A stretch of 8,355 bases of DNA from NCBI GenBank assembly GCA_030698575.1, contig JAUYMQ010000043.1, positions 1 to 8,355 of the forward strand. Direction: 5' to 3'. Position 1 is the stretch's first letter. Every line of letters begins with the position of its first letter. Positions 1 through 8,355 of this stretch are shown piece by piece. The position numbers and the translations under genes were made by a program. The stretch is from Deltaproteobacteria bacterium (GTDB lineage: Bacteria > JAUYMQ01). The notes beneath the pieces were generated by a model. That model saw only the letters and a list, made by a program, of their open reading frames with translations, was not told where the DNA came from and did no database searches.

Positions 1-153
1 TGCTCAAGGGACCATCGCGCAGGAAGGAAACCGAACCCAAGAACTGAAAGGAGGGCCAGCGTCGCTTCGCTCCGATCATGATGCCCGATCCGAGTGATCA
101 TGATGGACCGATCTTACTGATCATGATGGCCGAAATGCGCACCCGGTCCTACA
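1..153 (+). mobile_element. End of an IS21-like element (remnant, runs off the left edge)
   Basis: The stretch carries three direct repeats of GATCATGATG at 22-23 bp spacing close to an apparent element boundary. Multiple terminal repeats that bind the IstA transposase are typical of IS21-family ends. Read from the other strand, the boundary could be TGTAGGACCGG (end at 153) or TGCGCATTTCGG (end at 141); both start with the TG usual for this family. I prefer 153, because similarity to the type 2 left end stops exactly there. A plus-strand reading frame at 3-47 ends in ...KGPSRRKETEPKN-stop. It could be the tail of an IstB-like helper gene, but it is too short to assign. The family assignment is inferred from layout only. 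Confidence 0.4.
74..128 (+). repeat. Three GATCATGATG iterons
   Basis: Identical decamers start at 74, 96 and 119. The extended unit is roughly TGATCATGATGGNCCGATC, and the core GATCATGATG contains the palindrome ATCATGAT. The 22-23 bp spacing is about two helical turns, as expected for transposase binding sites at an IS end. Confidence 0.75.
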
Positions 154-196
154 GAATCGCTGATTCCCAGCCACAAATTGGAATTCGCCACCCACA
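154..196 (-). mobile_element. Type 2 element, left-end scrap (copy A)
   Basis: On the minus strand this piece starts with TGTGGGTGGCGAATTCC and continues through the GGCTG..AAT.AG.GATTCTGT pattern seen in copies B (1771-1993) and C (5350-5546). Only about 43 bp survive. One side is replaced by the IS21-like end and the other is joined to a type 1 tail from about 197. No coding sequence remains. Confidence 0.6.
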
Positions 197-1770: not shown

Positions 1771-1993
1771 TGTCCATGGCGAATTGCAAATCACGCCGCC
1801 ATCGATAGCTGAAATAGCCCGGGAGAATGGCCCTCGCACTTCCAGGTCCCATCGGCTTGGCGACCGTCATCAGCAGATGGCCGAGCAGGATGAACAGGTC
1901 CCTCATGACCGGAAAGCGTGCGGCACAACGGCCTCCGGAGCAACCCGGACGAATTGCTTATTTTCAGCCACAAATTGGAATTCGCCAGCCACA
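1771..1993 (-). mobile_element. Miniature type 2 element (copy B, MITE-like, 223 bp)
   Basis: One end reads TGTCCATGGCGAATTGC inward from 1771. The other, on the minus strand from 1993, reads TGTGGCTGGCGAATTCC. These form an imperfect terminal inverted repeat. Inside, on the minus strand, the transposase start survives as MRDLFILLGHLLMTVAKP (ATG at 1906) and runs on to GPGSARAI. It is then fused, out of frame, to the last codons of the same gene (PGLFQLSMAA-stop), equivalent to RGLYELPIAA in the longer copy at 6348. So nearly the whole gene was removed by one internal deletion while both ends were kept. It cannot move by itself but could be moved by a full-length relative. No clear target duplication is visible. 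Confidence 0.75.
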
Positions 1994-2118
1994 GGCGCGC
2001 CTTGAAAATCCGGCGCAAGCATTCCGAGCTCACCAAAGGAAAAAGTCTGGGTTTGGCAGGCGCAGATCGATATGGCCGCGATTGTGCAGCCGGTGATTCG
2101 AAGGATCAAGAAGAACAT
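1994..2118 (-). pseudogene. 5' fragment of a lipoprotein-like gene cut by the type 2 insertion
   Basis: An ATG at 2118 opens MFFLILRITGCTIAAISICAC, a hydrophobic export signal with a plausible lipobox (ICAC), followed by QTQTFSFGELGMLAPDFQGAP. The native sequence stops at about 1994, where the type 2 end begins, and the frame then runs on into IS sequence to 1903. The LGMLAPDF stretch resembles the start of redoxin/TlpA-type domains (commonly G..APDF), which would suit the disulfide theme, but eight residues cannot prove it. The ribosome binding site is weak (GGAAA). The gene lies 32 bp beyond the preceding small ORF and was probably the last member of the 2724-to-2118 cluster before disruption. 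Confidence 0.45.
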
Positions 2119-2150
2119 CGTTCAATTTCCAATGTTTCCAGCGCTAACTG

Positions 2151-2258
2151 TTAAGCACGAACTGGACTGTCATCTGGTTCCCAAGGCTCACCGGGAAACT
2201 TCGTAGCGTCGGGGATGGCGTTCTGGAGTGGCCGGGACCCCCGCGCCTCATCTGTCAC
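2151..2258 (-). CDS. Small ORF (35 aa) overlapping the end of the Cys-rich gene
   Basis: GTG at 2258 lies inside the last codons of the cysteine-rich gene: AAGTGA provides both its stop and this start (GTGA overlap), as in dsbB-dsbA. The product begins VTDEARGSRPLQ and ends EPDDSPVRA, a polar, proline-rich peptide with no domain, signal or cysteine. The only ribosome binding signal is a short GGA 5 bases upstream. It may be expressed by termination-reinitiation, or the overlap may be chance. I do not recognise it. Confidence 0.25.
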   Translation of the reverse strand: MTDEARGSRPLQNAIPDATKFPGEPWEPDDSPVRA

Positions 2259-2641
2259 TTGAATCCGAACTCGCAGCGTCCGGAGGGGTTGCAGAATATG
2301 GTGTCGCCCTGGGCTCCGCAGAGATCCCATGCCGGGCAGAAAAGCTGACCCCGGGCACCAGGCAGGTGATCGCGACATTGACCTGCGTACCTCGCCCCAT
2401 ATTGCTTCAGGAAGTCTCGCGAAATGGCGATTGAAATCCCGCCGGAGCTACAACCGCAGCAGCTCCAGGGAACCAAAGTGCAGTCGGAATCAACCGCGCA
2501 GCGCGTCCAGGCGGTCGGGATCATGATTACCTCGAAGCATAACTCGTGCGGCGGGAATGGGAACGGGTAGCAGGCGGTTTGGGAGGCGTTTGCGGTGGAC
2601 GAGATCAGAAGAAGCGCGAGCAGGAGGGGGAGTCGTTTCAT
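2255..2641 (-). CDS. Secreted cysteine-rich protein (12 Cys), unknown function
   Basis: The 128-residue product begins with a textbook signal peptide, MKRLPLLLALLLISSTANA, with cleavage expected after Ala19. The mature part has about 109 residues and 12 cysteines (24, 35, 48, 54, 61, 62, 64, 89, 102, 108, 117 and 123), an even number and over 10 percent of the chain, as in a disulfide-knotted envelope protein. CAVDSDCTLV (48-57) and the SCCGCSSGG cluster (60-68) resemble parts of small Cys-rich exported proteins with a C..D.DC pattern, but I cannot name a family. The ATG at 2641 overlaps the stop of a 28-codon ORF (ATGA) and has only a weak ribosome binding site of its own. The dsbB-dsbA pair 600 bp downstream could supply its disulfides (inference). 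Metal binding by CC.C is an alternative. Confidence 0.8.
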   Translation of the reverse strand: MKRLPLLLALLLISSTANASQTACYPFPFPPHELCFEVIMIPTAWTRCAVDSDCTLVPWSCCGCSSGGISIAISRDFLKQYGARYAGQCRDHLPGARGQLFCPAWDLCGAQGDTIFCNPSGRCEFGFK

Positions 2642-2724
2642 TGGATGCCACCCGACAGGCTCTCTCGTTTCGCTAGAGAGGCGAGGGAAAGGTGCAGGGC
2701 CACATCAATGAGCAGGCATCTCAT
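2638..2724 (-). CDS. 28-aa leader ORF translationally coupled to the Cys-rich gene
   Basis: ATG at 2724 has the best ribosome binding site in the area (AAGGAG at 2731-2736, 6 bases upstream). The frame encodes MRCLLIDVALHLSLASLAKR followed by ESLSGGIQ and stops at 2638-2640. The stop TGA overlaps the next start as ATGA. The downstream gene lacks a good ribosome binding site, so this ORF probably recruits ribosomes for it. The peptide is hydrophobic in its first half, with one cysteine and no known homology that I recognise. It could be a leader peptide, or an upstream start that only serves coupling. Confidence 0.5.
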   Translation of the reverse strand: MRCLLIDVALHLSLASLAKRESLSGGIQ

Positions 2725-2730
2725 GGGTCA

Positions 2731-2736
2731 CTCCTT
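2731..2736 (-). promoter_or_regulatory. Strong Shine-Dalgarno site of the leader ORF
   Basis: AAGGAG on the minus strand, 6 bases before the ATG at 2724. It supports real translation of the 28-codon ORF and decides its start over the second ATG at 2719. Confidence 0.6.
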
Positions 2737-2760
2737 GGGGTGCTGAGCCATCGAATGGCT

Positions 2761-2784
2761 TGTCATTCCCGTAAATTCCGTCCG
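2761..2784 (+). repeat. Type 1 left terminal inverted repeat
   Basis: It matches the reverse complement of 4010-4033 at about 18 of 24 positions; the shared blocks are TGTC, CGTAA, TTCC and TCCG. The right end of the remnant at 428 (TGTCCCTAACGCAAATTCC read inward) gives a similar match. Confidence 0.7.
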
Positions 2785-2791
2785 GCACGAA

Positions 2792-2820
2792 ATAATTGGC
2801 GATTTTCCATCAGATCTCAA
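2792..2820 (-). promoter_or_regulatory. Possible outward promoter just inside the type 1 left end
   Basis: On the minus strand, TTGAGA (2815-2820) and AATTAT (2792-2797) are separated by 17 bp, giving 5/6 and 4/6 matches to sigma70 boxes. Transcription would start near 2785, leave the IS within about 25 bp and enter the leader ORF at 2724. The IS may therefore have supplied the promoter of the Cys-rich gene. Short AT-rich matches like this often occur by chance. Confidence 0.35.
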
Positions 2821-2955
2821 TGCTATGCAACCCTTGGATTTGCGTCTCGCTCGGGCCGTTCGGCCTCCCACCCAGCCTGCCTTGCAGGGCTCCCCGCACA
2901 CCCTCGATACTCCTCGCCGCCAGATCGCCCTCAATCCCGTCCCCGGAATTCATCG

Positions 2956-3907
2956 ATGGTTATCGCCCACATGCTGCTCTCGTTCATCCGTGCCCTTTTC
3001 CGCAATCGCGACGGTCTCGCGCTCGAGAATCTTGCCCTTCGCCAGCAACTTGCCATCCTTCAGCGAAGCGTTAAACGTCCCCTGCTCCGCCGCCGAGACC
3101 GCCTCTTCTGGGTCTTGCTGAGGAGCTATGGGCCCGATGGGACGCTAGCCTTCTGCTCGTGAAACCGGACACCGTCGTTCGCTGGCATCGCGATGCCTTC
3201 AAGACCTTCTGGAGATGGAAATCCCGGAGGAAGAGACCGGGCCGACCGTCGCTGGACCCTGAAGTCATCGCCCTAATCAAGCGCATGGCACGCGAAAACC
3301 AGACCTGTGGCGCACCTCGCATTACTTCGGAGCTGCTCCTGCTCGGCTACGTGGTACGGGATACCGCCGTCGCGAAGTACATGCCGAGGAGAAAGCACGG
3401 ACCCCCCTCCCAGCGCTGGCGCACCTTCCTGAAGATTCATATGGCCGAGACCGCCGGCGAATCTTGCACTTCAACGTGACAACAAATCCTACGGCCGAAT
3501 GGACAGCGCAGCAGATGGTTGAAGCGTTCCCCGGCGATAGCCCGATCCCGAAGTTCCTCATTCGCGACCGTGATGGGATCTACGGAAGCTACTTTCGCCG
3601 GCGCGTTCGGAACGTGGGAATACGAGAGATTGTGACGAGCCGGAAATCACCCTGGCAGAATCCGTACGCCGAGCGGGTCATCGGCTCGATTCGTCGGGAA
3701 TGCCTGCACCATGTGATCGTCCTCGGCGAGCGGCATCTGTGGCTGATTCTCAAGCAATACGTCCGCTACTACAACGACGTTCGGCCTCATCTTTCGCTGC
3801 AGCGCAATGCGCCCATGCCGAGAAAGGTCGACCCGCCCGGTCGAGGGCGGATCGTTGCCATTCCCCACCTCGGCGGCCTGCACCATCATTATAAGAGAGC
3901 TGCCTGA
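2956..3907 (+). pseudogene. Type 1 DDE transposase, broken by frameshift and loss of the first catalytic Asp
   Basis: The gene starts MVIAHMLLSFIRALFR, followed by the conserved ENLALRQQLAILQRS and RDRLFWVLL. At about 3121-3126 the frame shifts: the true continuation, LWARWDASLLLVKPDTVVRW, lies in another frame. That segment holds the helix-turn-helix region (GAPRITSELLLLGYVVRDT, AKYM) up to WRTFLKIHM near 3442. It then jumps, with another frame change, to DRRRILHFNVTTNPTAEW from 3449. In relatives I recall, about 30 residues lie between these blocks, including VDFFTV with the first Asp of the DDE triad. They are missing here. The second Asp (IRDRDGIYG) and the Glu (YAERVIGSIRRE) remain, and the C-terminus HLGGLHHHYKRAA is intact. 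The product cannot be an active transposase. Confidence 0.9.
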
Positions 3908-3908
3908 C

Positions 3909-3921
3909 CCCCATCTTGGGG
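3909..3921 (+). terminator. Hairpin directly after the type 1 transposase stop
   Basis: CCCCA-TCT-TGGGG sits one base after the TGA at 3905-3907. There is no T-run, so it is not a canonical intrinsic terminator. The remnant at 242-255 has a weakened form (CCCTA-TCT-TGGGG). It may end or protect the transposase transcript. Confidence 0.35.
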
Positions 3922-3948
3922 AACTCCCGGGGATTAGCTCAGCCTGCG

Positions 3949-3961
3949 CTTCCGGGGGAAG
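3949..3961 (+). repeat. Conserved hairpin in the type 1 3' region
   Basis: CTTCC-GGG-GGAAG is identical in the remnant at 281-293, although the sequence between the two hairpins has diverged. This suggests selected structure near the element end. Confidence 0.4.
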
Positions 3962-4009
3962 TTCGCCCTGAACCCAGGATCGGTCCAAGATGGAACGGCT
4001 GAATGACTA

Positions 4010-4033
4010 CGGATGGAACTTACGATAGGGACA
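4010..4033 (+). repeat. Type 1 right terminal inverted repeat
   Basis: Read inward on the minus strand it starts TGTCCCTATCGTAAGTTCC and pairs with 2761-2784. It ends 30 bp beyond the antiporter stop codon. Confidence 0.7.
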
Positions 4034-4063
4034 CCCATGACGGCGGGACGTCCAACGCGGACA

Positions 4064-5335
4064 TCATGGAGAAAGCTCCTGCCCCGCACGACCCCTGGGT
4101 ATTCGAAGCAGCCGCTGCAGTACGGGCCCGCTCATCATGGATGTCACCAGGGCCATCGTCACCAGCGCCACGAAGATCCGCTGGTCAATCAGTCCATACT
4201 CCAGAGCGATCGAGGCCAGAATCATCTCCATGGCGCCGCGCGCGTTCATGGCAAAGCCGATGGCCAGCGCCTCTTTATAAGCGATGCCGCTTATCCACGC
4301 TCCCAGTCCGGCCCCGCCCACCTTGCCGACGGTCGCGATGCCGATTACCAGCAACACCAGCTCCAGGTCGAAGCTGATCGCGAAGTTTGCCTTCAAACCG
4401 ACGGAAACGAAGTAAATCGGTGCGAACAGGCTGATGGCGAACTGGTGAATGACGTCCTTTGCCTGCCCTGCTCCCTTGTGCTCGAACACACGAAAAAGAG
4501 CAACGCCAATCAGAAAAGCCCCGAAGATGGCATGGATGTGCATGGTTTCGGCAACGGCTGCCGACATGAAGATGAGGATGGCCGTCAGCGCCAGGTACCC
4601 GCTGGGCCACACCAGCGATTTTCGCGCCCACCGGAAAAGCACCGGTCCGGCCCACCGGCCGAATCCCAGCACCAGAAGGCAAAAAGTGAATGTCAGACCG
4701 AGTGTTCTCGCGAGGTTACCATCGAGATTGCTGGCGGTTAAGTTGCTGAGCAGCAACGCGAAAAGGGCCCAGCCCAGCAGGTCGTTGATCGCGGCGGAAG
4801 TCAGAACGATTCCCCCCAGCTCTTTGTGAAGAAGCCGAAGGTCCATGAGGATTCTCGCAATCACGGGCAGGGCCGAAATGGAGAGCGCGATGCCGATGAA
4901 GAGCACAAAATTCGACTGCCAGTTTCCGGAAGAGTACCCCCACAGCCCAGGCACAAGCAGGACGGAGGCGACGCCGAGGCCGAACGGCAACCCGCACCCG
5001 AGAATGCTGATGAGAAGGATTGCCTTTTTTCGCTTCCGAAGCTGAGAGAGATTGACCTCGAGGCCGGCCACGAACATGAAAAACAGCATGCCGATCTTGA
5101 TGAGCACTTCCCGCGCATGAACGAGTTCGGGCTCCCCCGGAAACAGTCGCTGGTAAATTTCCGGGAAGAACACCCCGCATACGGTCGGGCCCAGAACGAT
5201 ACCGCCTACTAGCTCACCCAGCACGGCCGGCTGGTGACACTTTCGCATGAGCTGTCCGAACAGCAGTCCGGCAGCCAGCATCACACCAACCTGTATCAGG
5301 AATACAACGGCGAGATCGGGGTGGGACTCACTCAT
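4064..5335 (-). CDS. CPA2-type monovalent cation:proton antiporter
   Basis: The 423-residue product has about 11-13 hydrophobic segments and the Na+/H+ exchanger fold signatures: PAVLGELVGGIVLGP (36-50), MLFFMFVAGLEVNL (83-96), a SISALPVIARIL motif before the core helix, and AAINDLLGW with the ion-binding pair Asn184-Asp185. A late helix has the typical FAMNARGAMEM with its Arg. It should exchange Na+ or K+ for protons across the inner membrane. An Asn-Asp pair instead of Asp-Asp is generally linked to electroneutral exchange, but substrate and stoichiometry cannot be read from sequence. The RCK/TrkA-N regulatory domain found in KefB/KefC is absent; the chain ends soon after the last helix. 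The ATG at 5335 has only a loose GGGGGCAG before it. A type 2 end starts 15 bp upstream, so the native promoter is probably lost or replaced. Confidence 0.9.
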   Translation of the reverse strand: MSESHPDLAVVFLIQVGVMLAAGLLFGQLMRKCHQPAVLGELVGGIVLGPTVCGVFFPEIYQRLFPGEPELVHAREVLIKIGMLFFMFVAGLEVNLSQLRKRKKAILLISILGCGLPFGLGVASVLLVPGLWGYSSGNWQSNFVLFIGIALSISALPVIARILMDLRLLHKELGGIVLTSAAINDLLGWALFALLLSNLTASNLDGNLARTLGLTFTFCLLVLGFGRWAGPVLFRWARKSLVWPSGYLALTAILIFMSAAVAETMHIHAIFGAFLIGVALFRVFEHKGAGQAKDVIHQFAISLFAPIYFVSVGLKANFAISFDLELVLLVIGIATVGKVGGAGLGAWISGIAYKEALAIGFAMNARGAMEMILASIALEYGLIDQRIFVALVTMALVTSMMSGPVLQRLLRIPRGRAGQELSP

Positions 5336-5349
5336 GGGCTGCCCCCGCG

Positions 5350-5546
5350 TGTGTATGACGAATTACTAATCACGCCCCCATCGGAAGCTGAAATAGCCCC
5401 CGACAATGTGCCTGCCGCCGGAATTTGTCGAGATTAGGGGAGTGGGGGTAGTCCCTCATGGCGCGGAAGCGTAGGGCAGAGGGCCGTCCAGGGCAAGCCG
5501 ACAGAATCCCTCATTTTCAGCCACAAATTGGAATTCGCAATGCACA
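5350..5546 (-). mobile_element. Miniature type 2 element (copy C, MITE-like, 197 bp)
   Basis: Its ends are TGTGTATGACGAATTAC from 5350 and, on the minus strand, TGTGCATTGCGAATTCC from 5546. Inside, on the minus strand, the transposase start codon survives (MRD, ATG near 5458). It is followed by about 14 unrelated or diverged codons and then the conserved C-terminus AHCRGLFQLPMGA-stop, in frame with that ATG. The internal deletion therefore left a mini-ORF of about 29 codons. The region between the terminal repeat and the ATG matches copy B well. Its right end lies 15 bp from the antiporter start codon. Confidence 0.75.
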
Positions 5547-5583
5547 GCTTAAGCTTGAGTCTACGATAGATTCTGCGCATACT

Positions 5584-5740
5584 TGTCCAGGCGAATTTCC
5601 AATCGAGCAGCGATAGGAAGTTCGAATCCCCCCTGCCAGACTTTCCTGGCGGGGAGGGCCGGCGCACAGTCGCCTTCGGAGCAAGCCGGCAGTTTCGCTC
5701 TCCTTCGTACAAGAACGGGAATAGCAATTCGCCACCCACA
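5584..5740 (-). mobile_element. Miniature type 2 element (copy E, MITE-like, 157 bp)
   Basis: Its ends are TGTCCAGGCGAATTTCC from 5584 and, on the minus strand, TGTGGGTGGCGAATTGC from 5740. The inner left part, GGCTTGCTCCGAAGGCGACTG, matches GGGTTGCTCCGGAGGCCGTTG of copy B. The transposase start is deleted; the C-terminal end FELPIAA remains but its stop codon has become CGA. The centre forms a strong hairpin: CCCC-T-GCCAG (5630-5639) pairs with CTGGC-GGGG (5646-5654). It lies 37 bp from copy C in the same orientation, so two miniature copies sit in tandem. Confidence 0.65.
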
Positions 5741-5804: not shown

Positions 5805-6317
5805 CTAATGCCGCGCGTACACCCACACCGATCCGTCCTTCTGGAAAGCGACAACGTCATAGGGCTCTATCGGGGCACCTGGCATCGCCATGCCGGGAGT
5901 GCTCAGAGGCATGCCAGGCACCGCAAGCCCGGCCACGTTCGGCCGTTCCGCTAGCAGCCGTTTCAAGTCCTCCGCCGGAACATGACCTTCGATGAGGTAC
6001 TCCCCGACCTGAGCCGTGTGACAGGACCGCATAGCCTTTGGAACTCCCAACCGGTCTTTGATTCTTTCCATGTCCGCTTCCTGGTAGACGATGGTAGGCA
6101 CCCCCTGATCGTGGAGGTGCTCGACCCATCTGGCGCAGCACCTGCAGGTGGGCGAATCGTAAACCACCACGATTGGAACGGGTGGCGATGAGGTCCGCCC
6201 CCAGATCCAGTACCAGGCCGCGCCGAGCACAACGAGACCGATCATGACTCCGACCAGGGCACGGCGAGTTCGCATCGTTCGCGTCGCCGGGCTCTGAGTA
6301 GAATTTCCATGTTTCAT
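5805..6317 (-). CDS. DUF411 metal-binding protein (CopG-like), membrane-anchored
   Basis: The 170-residue product has a short cytoplasmic N-terminus, one hydrophobic anchor or signal (about residues 20-39) and a periplasmic DUF411 domain. Signatures are YDSPTCRCCARWVEHL with Cys58, Cys60 and Cys61, SCHTAQVGEYLIEGHVP with Cys99, His100 and His112, and the C-terminal GLAVPGMPLSTPGM. CopG, a periplasmic copper-resistance protein that holds a copper-thiolate cluster, belongs to this family, so a role in copper or related metal handling is likely, though not shown for this member. The ATG at 6317 is preceded by GGACAGG, part of which comes from the type 2 end 11 bp away. ATG at 6275 (MRTRRAL) is an alternative start that keeps the anchor but has no clear ribosome binding site. 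No metal efflux partner is in the window. Confidence 0.9.
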   Translation of the reverse strand: MKHGNSTQSPATRTMRTRRALVGVMIGLVVLGAAWYWIWGRTSSPPVPIVVVYDSPTCRCCARWVEHLHDQGVPTIVYQEADMERIKDRLGVPKAMRSCHTAQVGEYLIEGHVPAEDLKRLLAERPNVAGLAVPGMPLSTPGMAMPGAPIEPYDVVAFQKDGSVWVYARH

Positions 6318-6327
6318 TAAGAAGACC

Positions 6328-6682
6328 TGTCCATGGCGAATTACTAATTACGCCGCTATCGGGAGCTCATATAGCCCTCGGCAATGAGCTCGCCATCGGA
6401 ATCGTTGGGGATTGGCCCGCCGGCGAGCTCGTACTCCGTCGGCTTCCTCAGGCGTATCGCCCCCGAGCGACGCGTGTACACGATCCTCGTTATAGTACTC
6501 CTTGAACTCGCCCAGCTTCCTCTCTAAATCCCTGGCATTCCAAAATAAGGTGTGGTCCAGGAACTCCCGGCGCGTGGTCCCGATCACCCGTTCAATGAAG
6601 GGATGCGATAGCGGGACGTAGGCTACCGACTTGATCTCGACTACCCCCAGCACCCGTAGGTTTGCTTGCCATCGTCGATACT
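6328..6682 (-). mobile_element. Type 2 element, 3' third (copy D), truncated by IS21
   Basis: The end TGTCCATGGCGAATTAC (from 6328) is the same terminal repeat as copies B, C and E. On the minus strand the element contains the C-terminal third of its transposase. It is cut near 6683, where the IS21-family end begins. The missing 5' part should lie beyond the right edge if the event was a simple insertion. Confidence 0.75.
6348..6682 (-). pseudogene. Type 2 DDE transposase, C-terminal fragment
   Basis: About 110 codons remain, from YRRWQANLRVLGVVEIKSV through LSHPFIERVIGTTRREFLD, which carries the catalytic Glu of the integrase core, to FRWRAHCRGLYELPIAA and the TAA at 6348-6350. This C-terminus is the reference for recognising the miniature copies. 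The N-terminal DNA-binding part and both catalytic Asp residues are absent. The open frame continues to 6695 only by reading into IS21 sequence (MFGDK), so no genuine start exists. It belongs to the same broad rve superfamily as the type 1 transposase but is clearly a different family. Confidence 0.85.
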
Positions 6683-6690
6683 TGTCACCG

Positions 6691-6734
6691 AACACTTAAA
6701 AGCGGCCACCGGGGAACACTTCAAACCCGGCCAC
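6691..6734 (-). repeat. Terminal direct repeats of the IS21-family element
   Basis: AACACTTAAAAGCGGCCAC (6691-6709) and AACACTTCAAACCCGGCCAC (6715-6734) repeat with a 24-bp period next to the element end. They are likely IstA binding sites. The spacing resembles the iterons at 74-128 but the sequence does not, so the two IS21-like elements are of different types. Confidence 0.65.
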
Positions 6735-6788
6735 TCGAGGTCGCGGCGCGTCAGTATCGTGCAGCTCCTTGCATCTGGTCAAGCCTCA

Positions 6789-7556
6789 TCATGCGGACGG
6801 CCTGGAGTCGGGGCCGTGTGCGGCGCTGCGGGCCCGCTGGTGAAGCCGATAGCTCTTGCCCTGCATCTGGATGAGCTCGGCGTGGGCGAGGAAGCGATCG
6901 AGGATCGCGGTGGCCGCGGGGACGTCGCCGAGGAACTGGCCCCAGTCCTCCGTGGGCCGGTTCGTGGTGATGAGGGTGGAGGCCGACTCGTGGCGGCGGA
7001 CGAAGATCTCCAGCAGATCCTCGGCCGCGCTGGGGCCGAGCTTCTTCATGCCGAAGTCCTCCAGCACGAGGAGATCCACGCGGGTGAGCGCGTCGACCAG
7101 GGCGCGCCTTTCGCCTGAGGCCTCGGCTTCGAGGAAGTCCTGGGCGAGGTCGAAGACGCTGCGGAGGCGGGCCCGGTAGCCGGCACGGATCGCGCCCACG
7201 GCGATGGCCACGGCGGCGTGCGTCTTGCCGATGCCGGGTGGGCCGATGAGCAGCACGCCCTGGTGGGAGGCGACGAAGCGAGCGGTGGCCAGCTCGACCA
7301 GCCTGGCCCGGGGGATCTTCGTATTGAAGGTGAAGTCGAAGTCCGAGAGTTCCTTGACCTGCACGATGCCGGCCTGCTTGAGACGGCGGGCGAAGAGGCG
7401 GTCGGCGCGGCGCGCGAGTTCGTCGCCCACGAGCAGTTCGAGGAATTCGAGATGAGCCAGGGGACTGCTCCGGGCCTGCTCGAGGCGCACGGGCAGGGCC
7501 TCGGCCATCCCGGAGAGGCGAAGGTGGCGAAGCTGGGTTGCGAGCTGGGGGTTCAT
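6789..7556 (-). CDS. istB: IS21-family helper ATPase IstB
   Basis: The 255-residue AAA+ protein assists IstA in target selection and strand transfer. It has Walker A GPPGIGKT (105-112), Walker B LLVLEDFG (162-169) and the TTNRP sensor motif (197-201). The N-terminal helical segment (QLRHLRLSGMAEAL) is typical of IstB. I chose the ATG at 7556 because AAGGAG lies 5 bases upstream and it overlaps the istA stop (ATGA); the open frame extends to 7952 only through istA sequence in another frame. The length is normal for the family and no key residue is missing. The C-terminal tail (HQRARSAAHGPDSRPSA) is poorly conserved and probably dispensable. Confidence 0.95.
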   Translation of the reverse strand: MNPQLATQLRHLRLSGMAEALPVRLEQARSSPLAHLEFLELLVGDELARRADRLFARRLKQAGIVQVKELSDFDFTFNTKIPRARLVELATARFVASHQGVLLIGPPGIGKTHAAVAIAVGAIRAGYRARLRSVFDLAQDFLEAEASGERRALVDALTRVDLLVLEDFGMKKLGPSAAEDLLEIFVRRHESASTLITTNRPTEDWGQFLGDVPAATAILDRFLAHAELIQMQGKSYRLHQRARSAAHGPDSRPSA

Positions 7557-8355
7557 AGGAACTCCTTGAGTGAGTACTGCGTTATGGGACGGATGGAGGG
7601 GTGCTCTTCGAGGAGAGACCGCTGGGCGGGGCCGGGGGCCTGCTCGGCGAGGCGGCGCAGCGCCTTGAGGCGGAACTGGCGATGCTCGAGGGCCAGGCGG
7701 GCTGCCCGAAGCACTCGCTCTCGGGGATGCTTGCGGGTCAGCGCGAGGGCGCCCTGGATGAGGCGCATCGCCCGGACCCCGCGCTCGGCGTGAGCCTGTT
7801 CGGCCCACTGCCGCAGTTCTGCGCCCACCTGCTCGCAGCGACCCAGCAGGCGTGCAAGCCAGACCTTCTGAGACGACGTCTCGGGCGAAGGACCCCCGGG
7901 CCTGGGAGCGTACTGGCCTGCGGCGACGCGCGTGTGGACGGCGACCTGGCACTCGCCGTCGTAGACCCGCACGAGCCTTCGATACCAGCGCACCCGCACG
8001 AGCCTGCCGAGCAGGTGAGGCGGCACGGGGTAGAACGCGCCGCGGACTTCGACGTGGCCGTCCGGGTGAACGCTGCGTGTGCCGGACTCGAAGAAGTCGA
8101 ACGCCTCGCTCGGGATCGGAGACAGGGCCGGCTTGTCGGTCGCGAGGAAGTGAGCGAACACCTGCCGGCGCGTCGTGCCGTGAATTCGCAGCCGCGCGAT
8201 CGTGCGGTTCCAGTGCCGAAGGAACTCGTTGTGCTCGGCGAGACTACCAAAGCGCCGGCCCTTCAGGGCGTTGCCCTTGACGTAGCCGCCGCTGCGCTCC
8301 TGCTTGCCGTTCTCCTTCGGGTTGCGGGGGCGGGTGGGAAGCGGCGTGAAGCCCC
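7553..8355 (-). CDS. istA: IS21-family transposase IstA (C-terminal part; 5' end outside the window)
   Basis: The open frame has no stop up to the right edge, so the gene is cut by the window, not broken. The visible part begins GFTPLPTRPRNPKENGKQER, then SGGYVKGNALKGRRFGSL and HNEFLRHWNRTIARLRIHGTT, all characteristic of the IstA integrase core end; the last catalytic acidic residue should lie in the KENGKQE segment. The rest is the C-terminal beta-barrel-type domain (GHVEVRGAFYPVPPHLLGRLVRVRW) and a basic helical tail. It overlaps istB by ATGA, giving translational coupling of transposase and helper. The apparent GTG start at 8161 is internal and not a real start. Confidence 0.92.
   Translation of the reverse strand, partial: GFTPLPTRPRNPKENGKQERSGGYVKGNALKGRRFGSLAEHNEFLRHWNRTIARLRIHGTTRRQVFAHFLATDKPALSPIPSEAFDFFESGTRSVHPDGHVEVRGAFYPVPPHLLGRLVRVRWYRRLVRVYDGECQVAVHTRVAAGQYAPRPGGPSPETSSQKVWLARLLGRCEQVGAELRQWAEQAHAERGVRAMRLIQGALALTRKHPRERVLRAARLALEHRQFRLKALRRLAEQAPGPAQRSLLEEHPSIRPITQYSLKEFL

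Follow-up and report, generated by a model that had tools for sequence, protein, structure and literature searches.

Type I miniature inverted-repeat transposable elements (MITEs) are short, internally deleted forms of a parent insertion sequence that have end repeats and on which the parent transposase is presumed to act in trans (PMC6382973). In the case of MITEAba12, only the end repeats are shared with ISAba12, and target duplications are present at 40% of 90 copies (PMC6382973). Insertion sequences of the IS481 type generate target duplications of 2-15 bp, mostly 6 bp, and TGT...ACA ends have been reported for the related IS481EU elements, which include non-autonomous families in parabasalids where the host is a eukaryote and the target duplications are about 4, 15 or 25 bp (PMC10045372). 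Among the papers listed in our literature search on IS481 together with MITEs, no recognisable bacterial family of this kind appeared, as judged by titles and abstracts, and those listed for the terminal sequence were all unrelated.

The stretch of DNA analysed here (the window, 8,355 nucleotides) is contig C576 of a draft genome of 653 contigs and 4.13 Mb that had no close relatives in the genome collection we searched. Three of its repeats, termed copies B, C and E, derive from a 1196-bp insertion sequence, of which each is a complete but internally deleted copy. Like MITEAba12 with its parent ISAba12, they are short, lack a transposase and have terminal inverted repeats in common with a coresident parent whose transposase presumably acts in trans. 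Unlike MITEAba12, they lack target duplications, occur in several architectures, retain parts of the transposase reading frame and belong to a set of far fewer and more diverged copies. With the parabasalid families they share the property of being non-autonomous derivatives of IS481-type elements. The parent element resembles IS481 in its single DDE transposase ORF, its length near 1.2 kb, its TGT...ACA ends and its best NCBIfam match (IS481 NF033577, 111 bits, E 5e-32). However, this score lies below the curated cut-off of 224 and target duplications are lacking, and because of these two departures we call the element IS481-like and do not file it as IS481. A related rve catalytic domain is shared with IS3, which differs in giving a lower score as the second NCBIfam match (NF033516, 93 bits, E 3e-26) and in that our element has a single ORF and TGT ends, IS3 ends usually being TGA.

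Results

Copies of the element in the window

The window contains five copies or fragments of the element, together with an IS21-type module, a second repeat and several host genes:

Copy A, 148..196, minus strand: right-end fragment corresponding to parent 1148-1196
Copy B, 1771..1993, minus strand (that of the lost transposase): 223-bp deletion derivative of the medium architecture
Copy C, 5350..5546, minus strand: 197-bp deletion derivative
Copy E, 5584..5740, minus strand: 157-bp deletion derivative, a strongly diverged member of the short architecture
Copy D, 6328..6682, minus strand: 355-bp fragment of the parent element from its left (transposase C-terminal) side
Transposase remnant ORF of copy D, 6348..6695, minus strand: 115 aa, C-terminal rve_3 domain
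IS21-type module, 6683-8355: istB ATPase at about 6789-7558 and the C-terminal part of istA at 7553-8353
Second repeat, 197-431 and 3865-4036: blocks 86-89% identical
Host genes surrounding the copies: DsbA-like/DsbB pair, 542-1635; CPA2-type Na+/H+ antiporter, 4064-5335; DUF411 protein, 5805-6317

The original prediction had placed B, C and E correctly, with the right lengths and terminal repeats. Copy B begins and ends with TGTCCATGGCGAATT...AATTCGCCAGCCACA, copy C has one mismatch in each end, and copy E has a left end that is one base short (TGTCCA-GGCGAATT). The residual transposase codons that it had listed are also present, with copy B coding for MRDLFILLGHLL and GLFQLSMAA at its opposite ends, copy C retaining the transposase start MRDY, and copy E retaining the transposase end ELPIAA. 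Overall, these three copies retain the left end over about 55-100 bp and the right end over about 95-165 bp. Copy D does carry the parent transposase end, as had been proposed, with 79% identity to the parent over 355 bp. It is an incomplete, transposase-end fragment, as homology stops at position 6682 where the IS21-type module starts, and this module probably interrupted a once longer copy D. A search for the other end of copy A up to the start of the contig did not find one. Copy A adjoins one copy of the second repeat. This repeat takes in the end region of a distinct rve transposase whose frame is broken, represented by an ORF at 3464-3907 and pieces upstream of it.

Intact parents elsewhere in the genome

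A full-length parent that shares both ends with the deleted copies had been predicted, and two are present in this genome. These 1196-bp elements (C242:168-1363 and C458:3076-4271) are 83% identical, have the same inverted ends and each contain a single 362-aa ORF that starts close to the right end and stops 20 bp short of the left end. The encoded protein scores above the Pfam cut-off for rve_3 and slightly below that for rve, and a profile search of the Protein Data Bank gave weak matches, to retroviral-type integrases only. Residues D186, D246 and E282 are conserved between both parents and, judged by their spacing and context, fit a DDE triad.

The terminal pattern TGTNNNTGGCGAATT is found at both ends of the parents and also of the derivatives, where up to 2 mismatches occur. 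When one mismatch was allowed, it occurred 40 times in the 4.13-Mb genome (22 of these exact) as compared with 3 occurrences of the reversed control, which indicates that these ends are not due to chance. Many single-ended remnants of the element are also present. Separately, a repeat with a palindromic core, GGTTGGCTTCGGTCCCCAACGAAGC, recurs close to several copies of the element in this genome (the right flank of the C528 copy, the flanks of C242:168-1363, and C205 at about 9000).

Two recurring architectures among the deletion derivatives

Apart from its parents, the genome holds about 11 deletion derivatives in three or more architectures, a total that counts C121:1-216 and the doubtful C349:9644-9758:

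Copies B, C and E (window)
C349:2316-2582
C349:7336-7554
C349:8945-9097
C349:9644-9758
C121:1-216
C121:13551-13704
C101:5084-5236
C528:137-289

Both ends are kept in 10 of the 11, the exception being C121:1-216, which is cut by a contig end. At 115-267 bp they are too small to code for the 362-aa transposase, and only its first and last codons are left. The many dispersed copies that had been anticipated are indeed dispersed, yet they number only about 11 and are diverged.

Junctions were mapped by two-segment alignment against both parents. The short architecture (153-157 bp, n=5) joins parent positions 1-~56 to ~1101-1196 and comprises copy E along with the C528, C101, C121:13551-13704 and C349:8945-9097 copies, with junctions at parent ~55-57 / ~1100-1103. 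The junction of C349:8945-9097 is the least constrained of these in that it can be placed anywhere in the range 55-82 within 4 score points, and the best fit is on one parent while a junction ~16 bp rightward on the other parent scores about equally. This copy was detected with a model trained on the sequences of the four remaining short copies, and so represents an independent addition to the group. Identity within the short group is 63-89%, the upper value being that of the C101 and C528 copies, which align without gaps. A weak match to the model at C205:8918-9045 was dismissed as it is without proper ends.

The medium architecture (~219-226 bp, n=3) joins parent positions 1-~57 to ~1034-1196 and comprises copy B, for which the segments are 1-~55 and ~1030-1196, along with C349:7336-7554 and C121:1-216, with junctions at parent ~50-64 / ~1030-1041. 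Its breakpoints are less sharp, with left breakpoints at 32-70 for copy B and 63-77 for C121:1-216. Copy C has a junction at parent ~74-99 / ~1070-1100 that is unique in this genome. The junctions do differ among B, C and E as had been described. The accompanying view that these copies arose independently or decayed differently is not supported for B and E, whose junctions are common to copies on other contigs.

Relatives in other genomes

Intact relatives with the same ends are present in metagenome-assembled genomes (MAGs) of Chromatiaceae, Ectothiorhodospiraceae and Nitrosomonas, with 56-68% protein identity. Deletion derivatives are found in those MAGs too, at 491 bp (L082/L100) and 571 bp (L081), and in a Chromatiaceae MAG a full element is inserted in a ~330-bp derivative of the same family (L096, G042:C204, 115-1642). 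Thus, the family is not confined to the host genome. Searches of IMG/VR viral contigs gave no relatives, and searches of plasmids gave only distant IS481-like proteins of about 30%.

Target sites and flanks

The short target duplications that the original prediction had expected are absent at all 18 complete copies, a set that takes in both parents and seven copies from further genomes, in a scan that covered lengths of 3-30 at the ends and offsets of 0-6 for lengths of 2-12. Matching between the two flanks of a copy is at background, that is, the same as between flanks of different copies, except that it is slightly raised at length 2 and offset 0 (0.39), which goes with a preference for G/C. 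Specifically, the outer dinucleotides consist of G/C only in 34 of the 36 flanks (p about 1e-14, taking the mean G+C of the loci as background and the flanks as independent).

For the Nitrosomonas insertion L079, a search for the empty site with the joined flanks gave no contiguous match among 60 other genomes of the genus. The left flank of this insertion is close to where a multi-copy gene begins, and its right flank consists of a piece of an unrelated palindromic repeat. Nitrosomonas MAG G045 (L153-L156) has an unrelated palindromic repeat of about 270 bp on at least 4 contigs, bounded by TTCAACTTGATATTTTAGGGTACAG and its complement, of which a fragment lies beside an IS481-like insertion. 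We read the flanks of L074, L077 and L078 as pieces of different genes or could not interpret them, and they yielded no clean target. At L074, L077, L078, L079, C349:7336-7554 and C528, the insertions with partly interpretable flanks, the two flanks do not read as one continuous sequence, which could reflect adjacent deletion, age, or the assembly of repeat-rich drafts. Adjacent deletion upon insertion is possible given that the flanks looked at closely were discontinuous.

Discussion

Directly observed in the sequence are intact parents, common ends, internal deletions, and two deletion architectures that each recur at different sites. Copies B, C and E are very probably type I MITE-like elements, deleted forms having been copied by the parent transposase in trans. 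Specifically, transposase from an intact copy would act in trans on paired TGTNNNTGGCGAATT ends, such that a deleted form, once made, would be copied to several new places (at least 5 copies of the short form and 3 of the medium form), with integration apparently producing no target duplication and showing a preference for two G/C bases on each side. Other copies would have decayed where they stood. Finding one junction at unrelated sites points to movement of the deleted forms themselves, and on this basis they are type I MITEs for which mobilisation in trans is presumed. Mobilisation in trans had been part of the original prediction, and two recurring architectures at unrelated sites are what it leads one to expect; from these we infer the trans step itself, since after one deletion, copying by the transposase of an intact parent would be the simplest reading.

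Low copy number, high divergence and the age of the copies speak against movement, as do the less sharply placed breakpoints of the medium group and the lack of target duplications, which leaves insertion without that mark. It could be argued that each short copy decayed independently and in place from an intact insertion sequence, with ends that were selected or survived by chance and nothing deleted having moved. We consider this unlikely. The absence of target duplications, the several unique architectures (C, C349a and C349c) and the many single-ended remnants would all be in keeping with decay in place. Speaking against it are the one junction found in five copies and the second found in three, at different sites, together with the unrelated flanks of the short copies. 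In a simulation with a simple uniform model, 3e-5 of trials gave five independent deletions that retain about 153 bp and agree to within 5 bp. A local feature that favours the 56/1101 deletion is conceivable, but inspection by eye revealed no direct microhomology. Spread of larger blocks by segmental duplication or recombination, rather than by transposition, might account for the concentration of several copies on a few contigs (C576, C349 and C121), and is nevertheless highly improbable. When 400-bp flanks were compared pairwise, no flank was common to the short copies, which argues against block duplication as the cause. The flanks of C and E match only by virtue of being neighbours, and similarity between the right flank of the C528 copy and parent flanks, over ~130 bp, is due to another repeat.

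We also give very little credence to the idea that the short elements were kept for a host function, as a transcription terminator or RNA hairpin between genes. The short architecture does juxtapose C-rich and G-rich ends as a hairpin (CCCCGCC...GGCGGGG), and copy E has a folding z of -4.0. However, folding z is -0.1 to -2.3 for other copies and +0.9 for copy C, the sequences are highly diverged and we saw no conserved gene context. We dismissed a dedicated role as an RNA or terminator, folding being not consistently better than that of shuffles.

With copying in trans of deleted forms as the preferred reading, the set has the traits of type I MITEs. Its members fall within the ~50-600 bp size range of such elements, are without functional transposase, carry the parent's inverted repeats and have an internal deletion, and copies of the same deleted form are dispersed (5 short and 3 medium, a low number), the flanks of the short ones being mutually unrelated. 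The definition thus applies apart from target duplications, which are also absent from the parents. The idea of a MITE-like family is in this sense borne out in part, and the family extends beyond this genome to proteobacterial MAGs.

The lack of target duplications is the one odd feature of a family that is otherwise ordinary in kind. A tentative and rather doubtful suggestion is that the clade as a whole, MITEs as well as parents, inserts without duplicating the target site at all and with two G/C bases bordering each side. If true, this would mean an unusual strand-transfer geometry for a transposase of the IS3/IS481-type DDE group, or true ends that lie 2 bp outside TGT/ACA.

Taken as a whole, the set is a modest new family of an already known kind. 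It adds a documented set of parents and derivatives for an IS481-like element, with two parents, two amplified architectures and relatives in other classes, and it flags a clade of elements without visible target duplication. For annotation, the short intergenic repeats of the window are explained as mobile-element debris. Finally, the derivatives suggest roughly which end segments are sufficient for copying, namely about 56 bp on the left and 96 bp on the right.
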